This document shows positions 26,029-64,000 of a stretch of DNA of 64,000 nucleotides, in pieces; position 1 is the stretch's first letter, and each line of letters opens with the position of its first letter. The notes below the pieces were generated by a model. That model made no database searches. It was not told the origin of the DNA and was given only the letters and a program-made list of their open reading frames with translations. The stretch comes from an uncultured Bacilli bacterium (GTDB lineage Bacteria > Bacillota_I > Bacilli_A > RFN20 > CAG-449), in the NCBI GenBank assembly GCA_944332075.1, contig CALVJL010000004.1, positions 62,001 to 126,000 of the forward strand, in the 5' to 3' direction. A program made the translations under genes and the position numbers.

Positions 26029-26168
26029 GAAAGAGGACAGGATTTATAATCACAATAAAACTCCATAGTTATCCCTGTCTTCATTTCATACCTAATTAAC
26101 TTTCAAGATTAATCCCCTCTTGGAAGCTAGAAAGAGAGCCCTTACCCTTTGAGCTCTCTTTTTTTTGC
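26029..26168 (+). ncRNA. Candidate structured small RNA (about 140 nt)
   Basis: A promoter and a strong terminator bound a segment with no credible ORF. The fold includes GACAGG/CCTGTC (26035-26040 with about 26074-26079), and two alternative partners for the 5' end: TTGAAAG pairs with CTTTCAA (about 26100-26105), and AAGAGG pairs with CCTCTT (about 26116-26121). The 3' end is a terminator, AGAGAGC/GCTCTCT (26132-26159) followed by eight T. The competing 5' pairings suggest a switch-like RNA, but no gene follows on this strand, so a trans-acting RNA is more likely. It has no feature of tmRNA, SRP RNA or RNase P RNA. Confidence 0.6.
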
Positions 26169-26548: not shown

Positions 26549-27712
26549 TTAACGATTAAGGCTAAAACAATAAAGAAGATTTGTTGTCTCTTTATAGCAA
26601 AGCACATAGCTTTCCCCCTCAATTGATTCATTATAAAGTCGATTATCAGCATCATAAATTAAATAATAATCATAATCTTTAATTGTCAATTGATAAGATA
26701 CCGGCAAATTCATATAGATAGTAGGTTCAAGCTGTTTAGTAAATGAGGAGGAATTAATAACTTTCATCACTTCGCTTTGATCAGAAAATCTAACCATCAT
26801 TTGAAAATTACCTTTTCCGTCAACGACTAAATAATCGCAGTATCCTTCATCTGGAAAATCTAAATGGACTATCTCGGAAACTTCATCAACATATTTAAAA
26901 TCCGTTTTAATTGCCGCCTCTGGAGAGAAACTCATCGATGCAAAAATGAAGGTTATTATAAACATTATAATTCCTCCAATTATATTCTTTTTGCAGCGAT
27001 ATCTTTTTCTAAGAGCAACCCCTAAGATAATCGACAAAGCAGGTATAATTAATAAAAAGAAGAAAACATAAATAAATTTTAATGTTAGATACGGAAATTC
27101 TGGAATAGGGGAAGCCGCCACCATTAAACTTATCAAAATAATACCGATAAAAGGTGTAAGTAACGATAAAGTAAACAATGCAATTAGCGAATAATAAATT
27201 CCATCTTTTGTGATTGATATTTTATTGGTTTTAATTAATGTTTTTAAAATAGCTTCTTGATGAGAAGAAATATTCTTTTTTTCTAAAGCTATAACAACAT
27301 CGTAAAAAAAGATATAGATATTATCTTTATCAGTAAGCATTTTTTTGATTTCATCATATTTTTTTTCAAAAGAGAACTTTGAAGTATCAGAAATAAGTTC
27401 TCCAGAAAAATCGCTATATGAAAAACGATATATTAGTTTGCTATTCGGTTTAGTAATAAGTGATTCCTTAACCGCTGTTTTAATTCTTACAAAATAACTT
27501 ACTACTAAAATTATCAAAAATATAATCAAGAAAATAGGTATTAGTACAAACAATTTATTAACATTACTTACCGAAATAAATACAATGGCTAACAAACAAA
27601 TAACCGCGCTTATAACAAATGGTAATAGGGCTTGTTTCATCAGCGAAGTATTCGTTTTTAAAAGATATTTCTCATCGTATGAGACTTCACCTTCTAAAAA
27701 AATATTATCCAT
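26549..27712 (-). CDS. Membrane protein of unknown function
   Basis: A 387-aa protein with about five membrane helices: a pair at about 28-48 and 52-72, a central group at about 175-198, 208-230 and 245-265. The N-terminal loop (about 80-165) and the C-terminal domain (about 270-387) are soluble. The C-terminal domain is rich in aromatic residues (DYDYYLIYDADNRLY). The start MDNIFLEGEVSYDEKYLL has ribosome binding site GAGGTAAAGGGT. I recognise no family. It is monocistronic and lies behind a 195-nt leader that ends in an intrinsic terminator, so its expression is probably attenuated. Confidence 0.8.
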   Translation of the reverse strand: MDNIFLEGEVSYDEKYLLKTNTSLMKQALLPFVISAVICLLAIVFISVSNVNKLFVLIPIFLIIFLIILVVSYFVRIKTAVKESLITKPNSKLIYRFSYSDFSGELISDTSKFSFEKKYDEIKKMLTDKDNIYIFFYDVVIALEKKNISSHQEAILKTLIKTNKISITKDGIYYSLIALFTLSLLTPFIGIILISLMVAASPIPEFPYLTLKFIYVFFFLLIIPALSIILGVALRKRYRCKKNIIGGIIMFIITFIFASMSFSPEAAIKTDFKYVDEVSEIVHLDFPDEGYCDYLVVDGKGNFQMMVRFSDQSEVMKVINSSSFTKQLEPTIYMNLPVSYQLTIKDYDYYLIYDADNRLYNESIEGESYVLCYKETTNLLYCFSLNR

Positions 27713-27742
27713 ACCCTTTACCTCTTCTATATATTTAAAGTA

Positions 27743-27907
27743 TAAAAAAACTCCTCGTTCCTTTCAAGACAATATTTTTTCTCTACGAGGAGTCTTTTTC
27801 TAAAACACCTAGTCCTTTTTTCAGAAGATTATTACTTCACGTAACATCGGTTATCTCCGCCTTTTCTTCAGCTTTCAGAACTCGTGTAATATACTTCTCT
27901 TTTCTAA
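27743..27907 (-). promoter_or_regulatory. Attenuator-like leader of the 387-aa membrane gene
   Basis: Promoter TTGACT (27936-27941), 16 bp, TATATC (27914-27919). The transcript forms a closed domain of about 75 nt: AGAAG..ATTAC-ACG (27883-27898) pairs with CGT..GTAAT..CTTCT (27823-27841). Inside is a CGG-AGATAA-CCG hairpin and the purine-rich GCTGAAGAAAAGGCGGAG segment. Then AAAAAAGGACTAGG and a terminator follow (9-bp stem ACTCCTCGT/ACGAGGAGT, 27750-27758 and 27785-27793, seven U). The gene starts 31 nt after the U-run. This is a riboswitch-like or attenuator layout. I could not assign it to a known class. Confidence 0.6.
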
Positions 27908-28070: not shown

Positions 28071-28724
28071 TTAATAGTTATTTGCGTCTGCAAGTTCAAA
28101 GTATGCTTGTGGATGTAAGCAAACTGGGCAAATCTTTGGTGCTTCGCTTGCGATAACGAGGCAGCCGCAGTTACGGCATTTCCAAGTATGGATACCTGTC
28201 TTCTTAGCAAAGACTTCAAGGTTTTCAACATTCTTTAATAAAGCGAGATATCTTTCTTCGTGATGTTTTTCAATTGCAGCGACACCGCGGAATTGTTCTG
28301 CTAATTCATGGAAACCTTCTTTATCTGCTGTTTCAGCAAATTCTTTATACATTTCGGTCCATTCATAGTTTTCACCAGCTGCTGCAGCTTTTAAGTTTTC
28401 AGCTGTTGAGCCTAATTCACCTAAAGCCTTGAACCATAATTTAGCATGTTCTTTTTCGTTGTCAGCTGTTTCTAAGAATAAAGCTGCGATTTGTTCATAG
28501 CCTTCTTTTTTAGCAACTGAAGCAAAATAAGTATATTTGTTTCTAGCTTGTGATTCACCAGCAAAAGCTGTTTGAAGATTCTTTTCTGTTTGAGTACCTT
28601 TTAATGATGGTTTTTCATCAATTACTTCGAGAGCGTCTCCGCCTTTTTTGCAAACTGGGCAAATTGGATTAGCTTCATCTGATTGGAAAACGTGTCCACA
28701 GACTTTGCATCTAAATGTTTTCAT
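28071..28724 (-). CDS. rbr: Rubrerythrin with rubredoxin domains at both ends
   Basis: A 217-aa peroxide-reducing iron protein. An N-terminal rubredoxin-like domain has C6-x2-C9 and C22-x2-C25. The central diiron ferritin-like domain has the expected EEs in [34 protein letters not shown] and [13 protein letters not shown] second rubredoxin-like domain closes the protein (CRNCG ... CPVCLHP). Most rubrerythrins have one rubredoxin domain; two are less common. The perR gene lies 45 nt upstream, and a Fur/PerR-type palindrome in that gap (28758-28773) suggests PerR control. Ribosome binding site AGGAGGAGAATTTAAG. Confidence 0.94.
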
Positions 28725-28757
28725 AAACTTAAATTCTCCTCCTATGTTACCTTAAGT

Positions 28758-28773
28758 TTCTGAACTGTTCTAA
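28758..28773. promoter_or_regulatory. PerR-box-like site upstream of rubrerythrin
   Basis: TTCTGAACTGTTCTAA is an imperfect palindrome. It matches the site at perR's own promoter at 12 of 16 positions, sharing the GAAC--TTCTAA core. It overlaps the perR stop codon and lies 34 nt before the rubrerythrin start. Confidence 0.6.
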
Positions 28774-29135
28774 AGTTTCTTTTGGCAAAGATAACATATT
28801 CCATAGTATAGAACTTGTTTTTTATGGTAATAATTACCATTTGCATCGAAGAAGTTTAATTTTTCCTCTTGGCTTGGAACATCAATCAAATTTCCACATT
28901 CTTCACATAGTAAATGATCATGCGGTTGAAGATTTCTGTCAAAATGATCAGGTAAGCCAGGAATTCTAATTCTTCTGATGTATCCATTCTCTACTAAATA
29001 GTTCAAACTGTTATAGACGGTTGCAAATACCATCGTTGAATTATTTTTTTTGACTTCGCTAAAAATTTCTTCCACTTTTAAGTGGTCCGGAGTCGAATTA
29101 ACAATGTTATAGATCAACTGTCTTTGCTTTGTCAT
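28770..29135 (-). CDS. perR: Fur-family peroxide regulator (PerR type)
   Basis: A 121-aa metalloregulator. The winged-helix DNA-binding domain contains TMVFATVYNSLNYLVENGYIRRI. The C-terminal domain has the HDHLLCEECGNLIDV metal and zinc segment and a second CYLCQ zinc pair. Neighbouring rubrerythrin and a matching operator favour PerR over Fur. The N-terminus is short, beginning directly at TKQRQLIY; an in-frame TAA lies just upstream of the ATG, so no longer form is possible. There is no obvious ribosome binding site. The operator overlaps the promoter start, so it probably represses itself. Confidence 0.88.
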   Translation of the reverse strand: MTKQRQLIYNIVNSTPDHLKVEEIFSEVKKNNSTMVFATVYNSLNYLVENGYIRRIRIPGLPDHFDRNLQPHDHLLCEECGNLIDVPSQEEKLNFFDANGNYYHKKQVLYYGICYLCQKKL

Positions 29136-29137
29136 TT

Positions 29138-29186
29138 TTTAGAACCATTCTAAATTTATTTTACTCTCATAACCTAATTAAGTCAA
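29138..29186 (-). promoter_or_regulatory. perR promoter with PerR-box-like operator
   Basis: TTGACT (29181-29186), 17 bp, TAAAAT (29158-29163) on the minus strand. A palindrome TTAGAACCATTCTAA (29139-29153) covers the predicted start site. Its spacing (two 6-bp arms and 3 bp between) resembles the Fur/PerR box, although the half-sites TTAGAA/TTCTAA differ from the Bacillus consensus TTATAAT. Confidence 0.65.
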
Positions 29187-29297
29187 CTTAAATCAATAAT
29201 AAAAATGGTAATAAAAAATTTAAGATATAGTTTTTGTAATCTGTTTATATTTTATTAAAGATTTTAATTATAATTAAAGTAATTGAGGGATTATTCT

Positions 29298-30245
29298 ATG
29301 AAATTAAAAAACATTTTTCTTCTCAGCTTAACGTCAATAATACTTGTTAGCTGCCAGCAACCACGTATCGACTCTAATGTTATTTCAGTGGATATGCCTT
29401 TTTATCAAATGGCGGAATTACCGGAATTTCAAGGAGTTTTTGATGACTTATTAGTTGGTAACGACTGGTTATATAACGAAACGCCTAAAACCGCGCAGAT
29501 ATCGCAAAAGGCTTGGAATCCCGATGACTGCGTATATGGTTTGACAGCTTTATCAAATCAAGCAAAAAGCGGTGAAACAATTCATTATGAAATCTATAGC
29601 GAAGAAGAAAGACAAGCTAACAAAGATTTAGACATGGCTTCTCTTTACTGCCTTCATAGCGATGAAAAGAAACCATTCGTCTTACTCCTAGCCGGAGGAG
29701 GTTTTTCTTCTGTTTGTACACCGTTTGAATCGCTTCCTGCCGCGGCTTACTTTAACGAATTAGGTTATACAGCCTTCTGTTTAACTTATCGCGTCGCGAA
29801 TAATTTTGGAAAACCAGTTCCTACTTTAATGGAAGATGTCGCTGCTGGTGTCAAATTTATTGTTGATAATGCCGAAAAATTAAATGTAGAAGTAGACAAT
29901 TACATAATCGGTGGTTTTTCCGCTGGAGGAATGACAGCAAATATGTGGTCAAAAAAAGATAATGGATATGGAAAATATAACTTGCCAAAGCCTGGCATGT
30001 CGATGATGATTTATGGCTATGATGAAAATTATCTTGATGAAGATTTTCCTAAAGCTTTTATCCGTCAATGCAATAATGACCAATACTTTTCACATGATGC
30101 ATATTATAGTTATTTAGATAAATTAAAAACTTTAAATATCTCATATGAAGCAAAAATGGTAAATTGTATCCACGGATTTGGCTTAGGAACTGGAACAGAT
30201 GCTGAAGGATGGATAGACGAAGCGTTAGCTTTTTATAATAATTAA
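29298..30245 (+). CDS. Lipoprotein alpha/beta-hydrolase (esterase)
   Basis: A 315-aa secreted lipoprotein. It starts MKLKNIFLLSLTSIILVSC, where LVSC is a lipobox and Cys19 the lipidation site. The mature part is an alpha/beta-hydrolase: AGGGFSS is the oxyanion segment, IGGFSAGG (about 205-212) the nucleophile elbow and HGFG the catalytic His. This resembles small carbohydrate-deacetylating or xylan esterases (BD-FAE/acetyl esterase group). The start at 29298 has GAGGGATTATTCT upstream. A GH5 enzyme follows 58 nt later with a nearly identical ribosome binding region, so the pair probably acts on an acetylated polysaccharide at the cell surface. Confidence 0.88.
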   Translation: MKLKNIFLLSLTSIILVSCQQPRIDSNVISVDMPFYQMAELPEFQGVFDDLLVGNDWLYNETPKTAQISQKAWNPDDCVYGLTALSNQAKSGETIHYEIYSEEERQANKDLDMASLYCLHSDEKKPFVLLLAGGGFSSVCTPFESLPAAAYFNELGYTAFCLTYRVANNFGKPVPTLMEDVAAGVKFIVDNAEKLNVEVDNYIIGGFSAGGMTANMWSKKDNGYGKYNLPKPGMSMMIYGYDENYLDEDFPKAFIRQCNNDQYFSHDAYYSYLDKLKTLNISYEAKMVNCIHGFGLGTGTDAEGWIDEALAFYNN

Positions 30246-30303
30246 TGTAAAGTTTAAATGTTTATGATTAAATTATAATTAGAGATATAAGAGGGATTAA
30301 CTT

Positions 30304-31605
30304 ATGGTAAAAAAGAGCAAAGTAAAACTTGTATTAAAAATAATTTTATGGATTTTGATTGTAATAATCTTAATTCCAGTCATCGGATTTTTTATTCTCT
30401 GCTTCATTGATCCAAATCCATATCGCCCTAATAAAATAGATAACCCTAATGGATATGTTCAGGCAGTAGGCACCAATCTCTATGATGGCGAAGGCAATAT
30501 TTTAAGACTTGAAGGTGTCAATTTAGGTGACTGGTTTGTCCAAGAAGCATGGATGGCTTCTGCGACAGTCGGTGATTATGATACAAGTTTATATACTCAA
30601 AAAAGAGCTTTAGAAGCTATGGCGGATAATCCAAATTTAACCGCGGAACAAATCGATGCTGTTGAAAAACTCTATATTGATAATTTCATTACAGAAGATG
30701 ATTTTAAAACTATCGCCGATTTAGGAATGAATACAGTTAGAATTAATTTTAGCTATCTCAATATCACAACCGATGGAGAAACAATTAAAGAAAATGGTTT
30801 TGAAAAATTAGATTGGGCAATTGAGATGTGTAATAAATATAATCTCTACTGCGTTGTCGATCTCCATGGAGCGATTGGTTCACAAAACCAAGATATCCAT
30901 TCCGGGGATGATTCACAATGGGCTCTATACACCACGCCGGAATACCGCGAAAAAACTATTAATCTTTGGAAAACAATTGCAACGCATTTTAAAGACGAAA
31001 AAATTATCGCTGGTTACGATTTACTTAATGAACCACGCCGCGCTCCAGGTAAATACGCTGGAAAAATCAATTTTGATTATTATGACGAACTCTATGAAGC
31101 TGTAAGATCAGTTGATCCTAACCATATGATTTTTATGGAATGCTTCACCTTCCCAATTCACGGAGTAAACCCAAGAACTTATGGCTGGGAAAATGTTTGC
31201 TACGAATACCATATCTATAACCAAACAACTCTATCACAAGAAACAACACTTTATTTCTATAAGGCTCTACATAATTTAATGGATTATGATGTCCCTGTTT
31301 ACATCGGAGAATTTAATGCTTGGGATGATTTAGGTGATTGGCAAGCTACCTTAGATTTTTTTGAAAAGCTTGGATGGTCATACTCTTCTTGGACATATAA
31401 AACCAATAAATATATGTACAATATTATTCCTGCTAATAAAACAAGAGGTTCATGGGGTATCTTTGAATTAAACTTAGAGCCCGTTGATTTATCAACAGCA
31501 ACCTATGAAGAAATCGTAAATACCTATAGCCAAGTCGGAACAGAAAACGCTGAACCAAGTTATTTATACTCATTCTATAAAAATTACTTTGCTAATAGAA
31601 AATAA
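30304..31605 (+). CDS. Membrane-anchored glycoside hydrolase family 5
   Basis: A 433-aa enzyme with an N-terminal membrane helix (about 10-34) and the catalytic domain outside. GH5 signatures are LEGVNLGDWFVQEAWM, NTVRINFSY, VVDLHGAIGSQN, LLNEP with the acid/base Glu near 242 and YIGEFNAW with the nucleophile Glu near 336. This resembles the exo-beta-glucanase type of GH5 (LEGVNLG and DLHGAPGSQN pattern). It lies downstream of the lipoprotein esterase and is followed by a bidirectional terminator. Ribosome binding site GAGGGATTAACTT. Confidence 0.93.
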   Translation: MVKKSKVKLVLKIILWILIVIILIPVIGFFILCFIDPNPYRPNKIDNPNGYVQAVGTNLYDGEGNILRLEGVNLGDWFVQEAWMASATVGDYDTSLYTQKRALEAMADNPNLTAEQIDAVEKLYIDNFITEDDFKTIADLGMNTVRINFSYLNITTDGETIKENGFEKLDWAIEMCNKYNLYCVVDLHGAIGSQNQDIHSGDDSQWALYTTPEYREKTINLWKTIATHFKDEKIIAGYDLLNEPRRAPGKYAGKINFDYYDELYEAVRSVDPNHMIFMECFTFPIHGVNPRTYGWENVCYEYHIYNQTTLSQETTLYFYKALHNLMDYDVPVYIGEFNAWDDLGDWQATLDFFEKLGWSYSSWTYKTNKYMYNIIPANKTRGSWGIFELNLEPVDLSTATYEEIVNTYSQVGTENAEPSYLYSFYKNYFANRK

Positions 31606-31611
31606 AAAAAG

Positions 31612-31645
31612 AAACATCAAGGTTAATCCCTTGATGTTTTTATTT
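31612..31645. terminator. Bidirectional terminator GH5 / TetR
   Basis: 11-bp stem AAACATCAAGG/CCTTGATGTTT. The plus strand continues TTTATTTC and the minus strand TCTTTTTTTATT. The TetR stop codon lies inside the loop. Confidence 0.85.
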
Positions 31646-32162
31646 CTTCTATTGTTTTTTTGGGGTCACCAATTAATAAGCTTTCTAATTTCTTTTCCGC
31701 TTCTTCGATTGGAACTTCATAATCACCAATGATTACCCCAATAATAAATCCAGAACTAGCGCCTCCATAATAATATGCTTCTAATTCATTTATTTGAGAG
31801 TTTCTACCTAGATTCTTAATTCCTTCGTAGCAGACATTAAATAAAAATCTTTGGACTCTCTCTATTAACCCTCTTCGCACGAGCAACCGAAAGAATTCAC
31901 GATAATCATAAAAAATTTCTAAAAATCCTCTTATGGTTGATTGAATATTAAAATTAAACGATTTTTCTTTACGCATTTTTGCGAAAATACTCAAAATATA
32001 ATCATCAATAACTTCATCTAGCGATGAATAATAACGGTAAAACGTCGATCTAGCTATCCCGGCTTTTTCTGTTAAATCAGTAATACTAATCTCTTTTATT
32101 ATCTTTTTATTTAATAATTCAATCAAAGCTTCTTGGATATACTCTTTATATCTTTTTATCAT
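31623..32162 (-). CDS. TetR-family regulator
   Basis: A 179-aa repressor. The N-terminal HTH reads EISITDLTEKAGIARSTFYRYYSSLDEVI (residues about 22-50), typical TetR with the FYRYY pattern. The C-terminal domain is helical and resembles the TetR_C group of DhaS-like regulators. It lies after nrdDG on the same strand with 68 nt between, and converges with GH5. The target is not evident from position. Confidence 0.9.
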   Translation of the reverse strand: MIKRYKEYIQEALIELLNKKIIKEISITDLTEKAGIARSTFYRYYSSLDEVIDDYILSIFAKMRKEKSFNFNIQSTIRGFLEIFYDYREFFRLLVRRGLIERVQRFLFNVCYEGIKNLGRNSQINELEAYYYGGASSGFIIGVIIGDYEVPIEEAEKKLESLLIGDPKKTIEEIKTSRD

Positions 32163-32230
32163 AAAATCTCATTTCTTGATTTTATCTTAGCAAATGTAAA
32201 TCAAAAAGAAAAGAGAGCATAAACGCTCCC

Positions 32231-32773
32231 TTAATCCATAGAAGTTTGTTTAACAATATAAGGAATAATTCTTTTTTCTTTTAAAGTTGACGGTAAATCA
32301 ATTAATCTTTGATTTTCCGATCCGCGATACTCAAGCATTAAATTTTTTTTACTTTCAATAAATGGTCCATCGACTAATACATCTATATAAGACAATATCT
32401 CATCGGTAAACTTTGTATGCTTTCTGCCGTCTTTTGGAAGAATATCTTGATCCAAAATATAGCCGGTATAGCACCAAACGCTTTTAGCTGGATATGTTTT
32501 CTTTATTCTTTTTAATAAATTGCAAACTGTTTCTTGGTTTTCTTCTTCAAAAGGTTCGCCGCCTAATAAAGTAAATCCATCGATATAATCAGGTTTAAGT
32601 AAATCTATTATGTAGTCTTCAACTTCTTTAGTATAAAGATCACCATAACGAAAATCCCATGTCTGTTCATTAAAGCAACCTTTGCAGTGATTGCGGCATC
32701 CTGAGACAAACAGAGATACTCTAACTCCTAATCCGTCTGCAACATCACAGTTTTTAATATTTCCGTAATACAT
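32231..32773 (-). CDS. nrdG: Anaerobic ribonucleotide reductase activating enzyme
   Basis: A 180-aa radical-SAM enzyme that installs the glycyl radical on NrdD. The SAM/4Fe-4S motif is in SGCRNHCKGCFNEQTWD (CxxxCxxC with aromatic neighbour). GFTLLGGEPF is the SAM-binding GGE motif. It overlaps the nrdD stop by one base, so the two genes are translationally coupled. Confidence 0.96.
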   Translation of the reverse strand: MYYGNIKNCDVADGLGVRVSLFVSGCRNHCKGCFNEQTWDFRYGDLYTKEVEDYIIDLLKPDYIDGFTLLGGEPFEEENQETVCNLLKRIKKTYPAKSVWCYTGYILDQDILPKDGRKHTKFTDEILSYIDVLVDGPFIESKKNLMLEYRGSENQRLIDLPSTLKEKRIIPYIVKQTSMD

Positions 32774-34929
32774 TATAAATGCAATACTCTATCTCTAATT
32801 TCCTGAGTACGTCCTTGGTTCCAGAATTGCGAACCGATATATCCGCATGTTCTTCTAGCGACGTTCATCTTGCTTTGATCTCTGTTTCCGCATTGAGGGC
32901 ATTCCCAGAATAATTTTCCATCTTTATCTTCTTTAATTTGAATTTCACCATTGTATCCGCAGACTTGGCAGTAATCGGATTTAGTATTAAGTTCTGCATA
33001 CATGATGTGATCATAGATATAGCGGATAACTTTTAATACTGCTGGAATATTGTTTTCCATATTTGGAACTTCAATATAAGAAATTGCTCCGCCTGGTGAT
33101 AATCTTTGGAACTGCGATTCAAATTCAAGTTTCTTAAAGGCGTCAATATGTTCAGAAACAACGATATGATAAGAGTTAGTAATATAGTTCTTATCAGTGA
33201 TACCTTTAATAATACCAAATCTCTTCTGCAAGCATTTTGCAAACTTATAAGTAGTTGATTCAAGCGGTGTTCCGTAAAGTGAGAAATCAATATGTTCCTT
33301 AGCTTTCCAATTCGCACAGGCATCATTCATATGCTGCATGACTTCTAAGGCAAATGGTGTTGCTTCTGGATCGGTATGTGATTTTCCTGTCATATACTTT
33401 ACACATTCGTATAATCCAGCATAACCTAAAGAAATAGTTGAATATCCGTTATAGAGGAGTTTATCGATAGTTTCGCCTTTCTTCAATCTAGCTAAGGCAC
33501 CATATTGCCAAAGGATTGGAGCGACATCTGATTTAGTTCCTTTTAAGCGGTTATGACGGCACATAAGCGCCCGGTAGCAGAGATCAAGTCTCTCATCAAA
33601 AATCTTCCAGAATGAATTAAAATCACCTTTACTAGATAAAGCTACATCAACGAGGTTAATCGTTACTACGCCTTGGTTAAAGCGTCCATAGAATTGATAT
33701 TGACCTTTTTCATTCTTATAAGGTGTTAAGAAAGAACGGCAACCCATGCAGGTGTAGCAATTACCTTGTTTTAATTCGAGCATGATCTTTTCAGAAATAT
33801 AATCTGGGACCATTCTTCTCGCTGTGCACTTTGCAGCTAATTCAGTGAGGTAGTAATAAGGTGTGCCTGGATCGATATTGTCTGGTTCCAAAACATAGAT
33901 TAGTTTAGGGAATGCCGGAGTAATCCAAACGCCTTTTTCGTTTTTAACGCCTTGAATTCTTTGTCTTAAAATCTCTTCAGTTATTAAAGCGATATCTTTC
34001 TTTTCTTGCTCTGATCTCGCTTCATTGAGATACATAAAGATTGTGACAAACGGGGCTTGTCCATTTGTTGTTAATAAGGTGACTATTTGATATTGGATAG
34101 TTTGGACACCTCTTTTAATTTCTTCATTTAATCTCTTAGCGATGACTTCTTCGATGTGTTCTCTTGTAACATCGACACCTGCGAATTCTTCTTCGACAGC
34201 TTTTCTAATCTTTTGACGAGAAACTTCGACAAATGGCGCTAAGTGAGTGATAGAAATCGATTGTCCACCATATTGGTTAGATGCGACTTGAGCAATAATC
34301 TGTGTTGCAATGTTACAAGCCGTGGAGAATGACTTTGGTTTTTCAATCATTGTTCCCGAGATAACTGTTCCGTTTTGTAACATATCTTCAAGGTTAACTA
34401 AATCGCAGTTATGCATATGTTGAGCAAAGTAGTCAGCATCATGGAAGTGGATAATACCTTGTTCATGCGCTTCGACGATATCTTTAGGAAGTAAAATTCT
34501 CTTTGTGATATCTTTACTTACTTCACCAGCCATATAGTCTCTTTGAACAGAGTTAACTGTTGGATTCTTATTTGAGTTCTCTTCTTTAACATCCTCGTTA
34601 TTGCATTCGAGTAATGTTAAAATTTGTTGGTCAGTCGTATTAGCTTTTCTAGCTAACGCGCGTTGATAACGATATGTAATATATTTACGAGCGACTTCAA
34701 ATGCTTTATGGTCCATTATCTGATTTTCGACAAGATCTTGAACTTCTTCAACTGTCAGAATTCTTCCTTTTTCTAAGCAGAGCTTTTCAACGTTTTCTGC
34801 ACATTTTAAAACATCTTCATCAGATAATCTCTTTGTTGGGGTAACCTCGTGGTTTGCTCCTTGAATAGCGTTGATGATTTTTTGGATATCGAATTGAACT
34901 TCGGCTCCGCTGCGCTTAATGATTTTCAT
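32773..34929 (-). CDS. nrdD: Anaerobic ribonucleoside-triphosphate reductase
   Basis: A 718-aa class III reductase that makes dNTPs without oxygen. The N-terminal ATP-cone (about 1-90, KIIKRSGAEVQFDIQKI) is the allosteric site. The C-terminal zinc site has CQVCG and CPQCG. The glycyl radical loop is RRTCGYIGSQFWNQGR. All key elements look intact. A structured leader and a 30-bp palindrome lie upstream. Ribosome binding site AAGGGTTCATT. No aerobic class I or II reductase is seen in the window. Confidence 0.97.
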   Translation of the reverse strand: MKIIKRSGAEVQFDIQKIINAIQGANHEVTPTKRLSDEDVLKCAENVEKLCLEKGRILTVEEVQDLVENQIMDHKAFEVARKYITYRYQRALARKANTTDQQILTLLECNNEDVKEENSNKNPTVNSVQRDYMAGEVSKDITKRILLPKDIVEAHEQGIIHFHDADYFAQHMHNCDLVNLEDMLQNGTVISGTMIEKPKSFSTACNIATQIIAQVASNQYGGQSISITHLAPFVEVSRQKIRKAVEEEFAGVDVTREHIEEVIAKRLNEEIKRGVQTIQYQIVTLLTTNGQAPFVTIFMYLNEARSEQEKKDIALITEEILRQRIQGVKNEKGVWITPAFPKLIYVLEPDNIDPGTPYYYLTELAAKCTARRMVPDYISEKIMLELKQGNCYTCMGCRSFLTPYKNEKGQYQFYGRFNQGVVTINLVDVALSSKGDFNSFWKIFDERLDLCYRALMCRHNRLKGTKSDVAPILWQYGALARLKKGETIDKLLYNGYSTISLGYAGLYECVKYMTGKSHTDPEATPFALEVMQHMNDACANWKAKEHIDFSLYGTPLESTTYKFAKCLQKRFGIIKGITDKNYITNSYHIVVSEHIDAFKKLEFESQFQRLSPGGAISYIEVPNMENNIPAVLKVIRYIYDHIMYAELNTKSDYCQVCGYNGEIQIKEDKDGKLFWECPQCGNRDQSKMNVARRTCGYIGSQFWNQGRTQEIRDRVLHL

Positions 34930-61301: not shown

Positions 61302-64000
61302 TTATGAAAGCAGATAAGATATATCTTCAAGGATAAGGGTTGAAAGTTTATCTTTAGATGAGATGAAGGTTTCTTGAAGTTCTTTTTTGAGCTTTTGTAA
61401 ATTGATGATCTTTGACTCAATTGAATCTTTTGCAATGAGTTTTATTACTGTGACGTTATTTTTCTGACCAATTCGATGCGCGCGGTCAAACGCTTGCTCT
61501 TCAATTGCATTGTTCCACCACGGATCTAATAAGATGACAATATCGCCTCCTATTAAATTAAGTCCGGTTCCTCCAGCTTTTAAAGAGACGAGCATGACAC
61601 CTACTTCGTCAGTTGGATCATTAAAGGAATTAGCCAAATTTAATCTTTCTAAACTAGTGATGCCTCCATGGATAAAATATGAAGCGATATTTTCTTCTTT
61701 TAATAATTTTCTTAAATGCTCTAAGCATGATTTAAATGAAGAAAAGATGATGACTTTATGATGATTAGATAGAGAACGGCTAACTAATTCAATCGCCCTA
61801 GTTAATTTAGATGAGATTTCATTATAATCGTCTAAGAAGATTGAAGGGTCTAGGCAGACTTCTCTTAAACGGGTTATCATTGCTAAAACGCTCATCGACA
61901 TGTTTTCGCTTAATGATTTTTTAGCTTTGGTTAAATATGCATCATACAAATCTTTTTGGGACTGCGAGAGGGTAATAATGTTGATTTCTTCGTATTTTGC
62001 CGGCAAATCCTGTAAAACATCATTTTTGGTTCTTCTAAGGATAAACGGTAATATTTTTGCAGATAACTTTTTTATTGCCTCTTCATTTCCGTTAATAATT
62101 GGCACTTCATATTCTTTTCTAAATTGTGAATAAGATAAAAGATAATCAGGTAATAAGAAATCAAATAAAGACCAGAGATCGCTTAATGAGTTTTCTATCG
62201 GTGTTCCCGTTAAAACAAATTTGCTTTCGCTTTTTAATTCTTTAACAGCTTTCGTTTTTAAAGCATCGGCATTTTTAATGTATTGACCTTCATCAAGTAT
62301 TAAAAGAGAAAATTCTTTATTTTGATAAAGAGAGATATCGTTTCTTAAAGAATCATAGGAAGTGATATAAATCTTTTTCCCTTTCATAGAAACAATCAAG
62401 GATGAACGCGAGTCTTTATCGCCATCGATTACTTTAACGTTTAGAGAATCATCCCAAATTTTAAATTCGTTTTCCCAGTTATAAATAACACTTTTAGGAG
62501 AAACAATCAAAATTGGTTTATCAAAATCTATTGAAGAGATTAAAGAAATCATCTCTAAGGTTTTACCTAATCCCATATCATCGGCTAGAATTCCATTTAA
62601 ATGATATTTCTTTAGTGTCATTAGCCAGAGAAAAGCTTCTTTTTGATAAGGTTTTAAAACGTTTTCCAAACGCGGATTTAATGGGAAAGTATTATTTTTA
62701 TAGTTCTTTATATCCATGATGATATTGCGAATTTTTTGATCCATGGCAAAAGTTAGAGGAGAGGCGTTAATTTTGAAGATTTCATAAAGAGGTAATGTAG
62801 TATTTTTATTATCTAAAGAATTGATATTGAAGTCTTTTAAAAGGGAATCAACTTCTTTTAATTCATCAAAATCAAGTAACTCCATCTGATCTTTATAAAG
62901 AATAAATTTCTTCTTTTCTCGATAAGCTTTCAATATTTTGTTTGCTTCTTCTAAGCTTAAAGGTGAAGAGGTATCATATTTTAGAGAAAGAAAATCTAAA
63001 TCAAACGATAAAGAGAATTTAATACTTTTAGCCTTGGTTATCACTTTATTACGGATATTTTCACTTAAAAATATTTGACAATACTTATTTAAATCATCTA
63101 GATCTTCTTTAAGAATTTTGATTATTTGATCTTGATTACTAATAACCATTGATTCTTGAAGTGAATACTTTTCTAAAGCTTTAATGTAATCATAGATTTT
63201 TTCTTTAAAAGCAATATCGTTAAGAGCTTCATTAAGAGAAAATTCTTGATCGTTGATAAAATAATAAGTTTTCAAAGTTAAAATATAGTTATCTAAAGTG
63301 ATATAGAGATTAATGTTATAAGTAATATTTTGATTTTGCAAAGGTGTTTGTAAAAGTGGTAAAAGCCTTGTTGTGTAAAGATCTTCAACTTTTTTTATAT
63401 CAAAATCTTTATGGTTAACAAAGAAAGAGAATACTTTTTGTTCACGTTCGTTTTTAAACTTCAAAATGGTAACAGTTCTGTTTTGATTGTTAATTTCTGC
63501 TCCGTTTAGGTGATAATAAAGCAAGGTACTTTCAGCTGAAGATAAGTATGAAAAGGAAATATTTTCGGTATTTAGATTTAAAATAATTTCAGTAGTAGCT
63601 TTTTCTACATAATAATTTGTTTCATTAATGACAACAATTTCTCCTCTTAAGGCTTTTAGAATGTTTAACGTATTATTAATGTCGAGAAGATATCCGTCAT
63701 CCGTTTCATCGCTTTTCACAAAGATACGAGAAAGCACGCTGATAAGGTTTTGAGCGCGTTCATTAAATGAAGAGATGTTATGCGAAAAAGAAAGTTCAGA
63801 ACCATAAGAATAATATCCGTTTTGCCTAATTAATTCTAAAAAATTATTAATTGATTTAATTAAGTATAATTTTTCTTTTCCGATGTATAATTCTAGATAA
63901 TAATGGTAATCATCCTTTTTAAGAAGATGCACTTCTAAGCGGATTTCATTATGATATTGCTGGGAAAAAAGTCATAGTTATATCAAGTGAGTTTAAAAGA
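61302..64000 (-). pseudogene. SNF2-family helicase, 5' part cut by window and probably frameshifted
   Basis: The main open frame (at least 876 codons, from about 63960 to 61302) is an SNF2 ATPase: ADDMGLGKT (Walker A) near 452, LLILDEGQ, the GTPIENSLSDLWSLFDFLLP motif, IFSSFKSCLEHL and DRAHRIGQ in the C-terminal lobe. The N-terminus fits the helicase-associated domain, but the SWIM zinc part expected before it is out of view. An in-frame TGA lies at about 63975, and the sequence before it continues in another frame (LLNSLDITMTF). Deleting one T from the six-T run at 63965-63970 joins them. It is therefore frameshifted or an assembly error. Confidence 0.8.

Follow-up and report, generated by a model that had tools for sequence, protein, structure and literature searches.

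A conserved, genus-specific RNA element ahead of a YcxB-like membrane protein gene in an uncultured Bacilli bacterium, tentatively read as a small RNA gene rather than a riboswitch

Riboswitches that terminate transcription adopt mutually exclusive architectures, in which the terminator stands against an alternative pairing (PMC2258182). Two purine riboswitches (RF00167) were found in the genome under study (G000:C14:23907-24008 and C6:11855-11951); ordinary riboswitches are recognisable in this lineage. In the present study, we analysed a window of 64,000 nt, the whole stretch of DNA presented here, from an uncultured Bacilli bacterium (G000), and compared it with a second species of the genus (G001), a third species (G002) and further relatives. 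The subject was a minus-strand element of about 163 nt, running from about 27906 to 27744, which we named e1. Like a terminating purine riboswitch, e1 consists of a branched domain followed by a terminator upstream of a gene. Like 6S RNA (RF00013), it falls in the range of about 160-200 nt and has a closing stem, but e1 is multibranched, whereas 6S RNA is a single interrupted hairpin. A promoter, a branched fold, a terminator and a gene in a row look riboswitch-like, and this is the trap of the locus, yet the antiterminator was absent and a related RNA stood alone in a sister species.

The features of the locus are collected in Table 1. On the minus strand, the rubrerythrin gene and its terminator are followed by a promoter, e1, the terminator of e1 and then the gene of a 387-aa protein. 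Because rubrerythrin ends in a terminator of its own, e1 is isolated as its own transcription unit; it carries its own promoter and terminator, as a small RNA gene separate from rubrerythrin would. The structured transcript that the first-pass annotation had described before a membrane protein gene was thus borne out on this strand, with promoter, multi-stem domain and terminator all found. The terminator stem comprises 10 bp (27794-27785/27758-27749) around a loop of 26 nt, its T-run covers 27750-27744, and 31 nt separate its end from the ATG. On the minus strand, 27743-27907 folded at -41.2 kcal/mol (z = -3.9, none of 200 dinucleotide shuffles as good), and the plus-strand fold had z = -2.1. 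The branched domain by itself yielded -20.7 kcal/mol (z = -1.8) and was matched or bettered by 12 of 200 shuffles, indicating that most of the excess stability of e1 comes from the terminator.

Table 1. Coordinates of e1 and of the features around it in the window.
Feature	Position	Strand	Basis or remark
Rubrerythrin gene	28724-28071	-	Upstream of e1
Rubrerythrin terminator	28050-28031	-	Separates e1 from rubrerythrin
e1 promoter, sigma-70-type, TTGACT-18-TATCAT	27941-27912	-	Consensus scan
e1 5' tail and branched domain	27801..27906	-	Fold; same fold in G001
Branched domain of e1	~27891-27801	-	Fold
e1 closing stem	27891-27877/27801-27816	-	ACAC..GUGU plus AGUUCU..AGGACU; internal loop follows
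e1 second stem	27871-27865/27828-27822	-	Beyond the internal loop
e1 two hairpins	27859-27848 and 27846-27830	-	Fold
e1 intrinsic terminator	27794-27744	-	GACTCCTCGT, 26-nt loop, ACGAGGAGTT, then T-run
Candidate separate promoter of the 387-aa gene, TTGAAA-17-TATACT	27739..27767	-	Consensus scan, 10/12; overlaps terminator
387-aa YcxB-like membrane protein gene	27712-26549	-	ORF
Gene start GGATAATATTTTTTT	27696..27710	-	15 contiguous pairs, G-U included, with GAAAAAATATTGTCT in the e1 terminator loop
e2 promoter, TTGCCT-17-TAATAT	26439-26411	-	Promoter ahead of e2
Element e2, conserved RNA of ~210 nt	26401-26187	-	Just past the 387-aa gene; same kind of terminator

In G001, an element with this fold and 94% identical in sequence precedes the orthologous gene (90% identity). 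The divergence of e1 between the two species was 3.7%, with changes at 6 of 95 domain positions and at none of the 57 terminator positions, loop included. By comparison, divergence reached 31% over the 83 nt that precede the promoter and 46% at the fourfold sites of the gene, which indicated that e1 is functional; the sequence comparison confirmed it as a real RNA under selection. Within the promoter, the -35 hexamer was invariant and the -10 region almost invariant (both hexamers identical in the alignment), and the 18-nt spacer carried 5 differences (28%). Of four changes at paired sites of the domain, two preserve the pairing and each of the remaining two leaves one species unpaired; with two sequences, these changes are uninformative for covariation. 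The unchanged 26-nt loop suggested that the loop itself has a function.

Among 58 relatives, the leader DNA had a single real match, in G001. Other short matches in relatives were discarded, since those examined fall in coding sequence; AAGCTGAAGAAA, for example, encodes KAEE-like stretches. With a covariance model of the e1 domain, no other convincing match emerged from 279 genomes of the order or from 395 of the class. The surroundings of the matches in G229, G246 and G149 were not RNA-like, and these appear to be chance matches; one match in G410 reached E 0.016. No second copy of the domain was detected in the fetched half of this genome; the other half was covered by faster searches, one of which did not list e1 itself and so can miss weak copies. 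Neither the leader in phages nor its exact core pattern in viral contigs was detected, and plasmid matches were short and due to chance only.

The 387-aa protein had no significant Pfam match of its own; the YcxB family was matched by four of five members of its protein family (best E 1.9e-7). Outside the genus, the protein has six good homologues (27-40% identity); none was preceded by an e1-like leader, and their upstream regions were different and mostly short. A profile search of the contigs with the protein alignment returned two relatives, namely what appears to be the L039 locus again and the contig of L025, and the leader was present in neither. The homologues in L026 and L040 carry an N-terminal XRE-type helix-turn-helix, recognised by eye, suggesting that the YcxB-like proteins of those species may be membrane-bound regulators. 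The candidate promoter of the 387-aa gene matches the consensus at 10 of 12 positions, which in AT-rich DNA is weak evidence alone. Sites of this quality at that distance preceded 46 of 571 genes, against 18 in shuffles (8% versus 3%). Across half of this genome, a terminator lies 15-80 nt ahead of the ATG at 16 of 573 genes, so the compact spacing at this locus is by itself no argument for attenuation.

Just past the 387-aa gene lies e2, which differs from its G001 counterpart at 3 of 214 positions and is thus more conserved than e1; no same-strand gene follows it, and it had no Rfam match. A homologue of e2 was found in G002 at 160.6 bits (e0, L074:9691-9892), directly after rubrerythrin. 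It is followed by a convergent gene and therefore is no leader; G002 has neither the 387-aa gene nor e1. All three elements end in one terminator module, consisting of CTCCTnG, a loop of more than 20 nt, CnAGGAG and a T-run. The pattern CTCCTNG-N14..34-CNAGGAGNTTTT occurred exactly twice in this genome, both times at this locus; G001 has two occurrences and G002 a single one, in the syntenic position. The search of 276 genomes gave seven matches elsewhere, mostly coding sequence or gene starts and one ordinary terminator. When e2 and e0 alone were used to build a model, it recovered e1 from each of the two species (25.5 and 28.3 bits, E 2e-4 and 4e-5), and in the fetched half of the genome e1 was its best match after e2 itself. 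A 16.9-bit match of this model at 62496 was set aside, as it falls within an apparent SNF2-like coding region. The detection of e1 works through the 3' module. Without the terminator, the homology of e2 and e0 remained clear (z 4.7), whereas the e1 domain showed no significant similarity to either of them (z below 1), so that the membership of e1 in this set rests on the 3' module. At least this module is thus common to e1 and the free-standing RNAs e0 and e2.

The neighbourhood held further RNA-like features. 6S RNA was not detected in G000, G001, G002 or G003, where it may have been lost or have diverged, and G004 and G005 of sister genera have one. Since the genus yielded none, e1 itself was considered as a 6S RNA and rejected: it is multibranched, the locus gave no RF00013 match and the 6S RNAs of the sister genera look different. 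A third RNA-like element, strongly conserved in G001, lies on the plus strand at about 26029-26168, convergent with e2, and has a promoter-like TTGATA-17-TAAGAT, a hairpin GACAGG..CCTGTC and a terminator GAGAGC..GCTCTC with a T-run. Its 31-nt terminator hairpin AAAGAGAGCTCAAAGGGTAAGGGCTCTCTTT (26131-26161) is exactly inverted in G001 relative to the flanks, a natural small inversion between hairpin arms. The genes nrdD-nrdG-perR-rubrerythrin are contiguous in G002 (L074). Here, within 28071-34929, they are separated by inserted genes, which at 29283-32162 include a TetR-like regulator and glycosidase-like and lipoprotein-like ORFs.

We read e1 as a genus-specific, free-standing small RNA gene with its own terminator, placed before a separately promoted gene, and put the probability of this reading at roughly 0.55. 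The element would be transcribed from its own promoter, fold into the branched domain and stop at the strong terminator. Together, e1, e2 and e0 would form a small genus-specific RNA set, related at least by the 3' terminator module and clustered downstream of perR-rubrerythrin. The 387-aa gene would then be transcribed probably mainly from its own candidate promoter, which overlaps the terminator. It is most likely the conserved terminator loop that would act, through base pairing; the best candidate target is the start of the neighbouring gene, whose translation would be repressed. When the e1 loop was compared with 572 gene starts, the neighbouring gene ranked first and none of 1000 loop shuffles was as good; with the whole of e1, the same gene ranked only tenth. 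Self-complementarity as strong at a similar distance was found in 5 of 569 control genes. The complementarity is A/T-rich and about 1% significant before allowing for several tests and segments, so the pairing of loop and gene start is suggestive only, a lead and not a result. No clear signal was obtained for complementarity of the e1 5' tail or the e2 loop to gene starts. That e1 lies immediately upstream of its own target and on the same strand, with the 26-nt loop as an antisense seed against the gene start (GAAAAAAUAUUGUCU with GGAUAAUAUUUUUUU), is doubtful as a specific proposal. Under it, the terminated e1 RNA would repress translation of the 387-aa gene in trans, and any transcript reading through could form a pseudoknot and so silence itself in cis.

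The main rival to the small RNA gene is a leader attenuated under another factor, a possibility that we take seriously without favouring it. Here e1 would be a true 5' leader with its terminator off by default, and an RNA-binding protein or antitermination factor would permit read-through into the YcxB-like gene. The terminator end so close to the ATG, the strong selection on the leader and a pre-terminator transcript made up of a stable domain and a free terminator arm would all suit such a leader. Since G000 and G001 have e1 as well as the 387-aa gene and G002 has neither, the joint distribution also fits a cis leader. It is harder to reconcile with gene homologues that have no leader, with the recurrence of the same module in e2 and e0, neither of which is followed by a gene on the same strand, and with a candidate separate promoter downstream of the terminator. 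The first-pass annotation had described a textbook transcription-attenuation layout, possibly a riboswitch, naming homologous genes without a similar leader and a match to an ordinary small RNA as grounds against it. The order of domain and terminator upstream of a gene stood, but the antiterminator that competes with the terminator, the key element of such a layout, was missing. The homologues outside the genus lacked the leader in six of six cases. For an ordinary small RNA the outcome was divided, with no Rfam match but with a terminator module shared with the neighbouring RNA, whose G002 homologue stands free. With no matching Rfam family, no leader at the homologues or convincing copy of the domain elsewhere, and no obvious antiterminator, the riboswitch reading was not supported.

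It is accordingly unlikely that a metabolite riboswitch of an unknown class controls the YcxB-like gene through termination of transcription. The closed branched domain, linker, terminator and gene do stand in the right order, and a known class is improbable because e1 had no Rfam match: the scan of the 64-kb window gave no match at the gathering score, and the relaxed matches at e1 were far below threshold. In the pre-terminator transcript, however, the 5' arm of the e1 terminator paired upstream with a probability of 0.05 and 0.02, and a slightly longer arm with 0.09 and 0.03, by a thermodynamic measure that does not cover pseudoknots and bound-state contacts. By the same measure, the purine riboswitches of relatives reached 0.65-0.99 in six of the seven having a terminator; the seventh gave 0.32 with a 45-nt loop and may be the wrong hairpin. 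The 26-nt terminator loop of e1 also counts against this reading, as do homologues without a leader and a domain with no second copy in half of the genome and none in the genomes of the order and class. No conserved aptamer recurring before functionally related genes was found, the e1 domain occurring in two sister species only. A leader-peptide attenuator coupled to the ribosome is hardly tenable. In this genome, ATG TTA CGT GAA GTA ATA ATC TTC TGA follows a Shine-Dalgarno-like GGCGGAG, but G001 has AAG in place of the ATG, and no frame with a start and stop inside the element is common to both species; this candidate was rejected on the lost start codon. That the fold arose by chance or is decayed sequence without function is very improbable: the domain by itself was only moderately better than shuffles and covariation was uninformative with two sequences, but the divergence of e1 was eight-fold lower than that of the flanking DNA and its terminator was invariant.

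Compared with known systems, e1 departs from riboswitches in having no competing antiterminator (0.03-0.09 versus 0.65-0.99) and no conserved gene association, and its loop of 26 nt contrasts with the loops of 4-10 nt in purine riboswitches with a clear terminator. None of the papers searched described a small RNA linked to YcxB or to rubrerythrin. If the small RNA reading is right, the locus would hold an uncatalogued, lineage-restricted small RNA set beside perR-rubrerythrin in poorly studied small-genome Bacilli. Unlike the known trans-acting or cis-encoded regulatory small RNAs of Firmicutes, e1 has an unchanged 26-nt loop, no Rfam relative and a range of two species. Like the terminator-bearing small RNAs of that group, it has its own promoter, a length of about 160 nt, a structured body and a U-run terminator, and it is intergenic and under selection.
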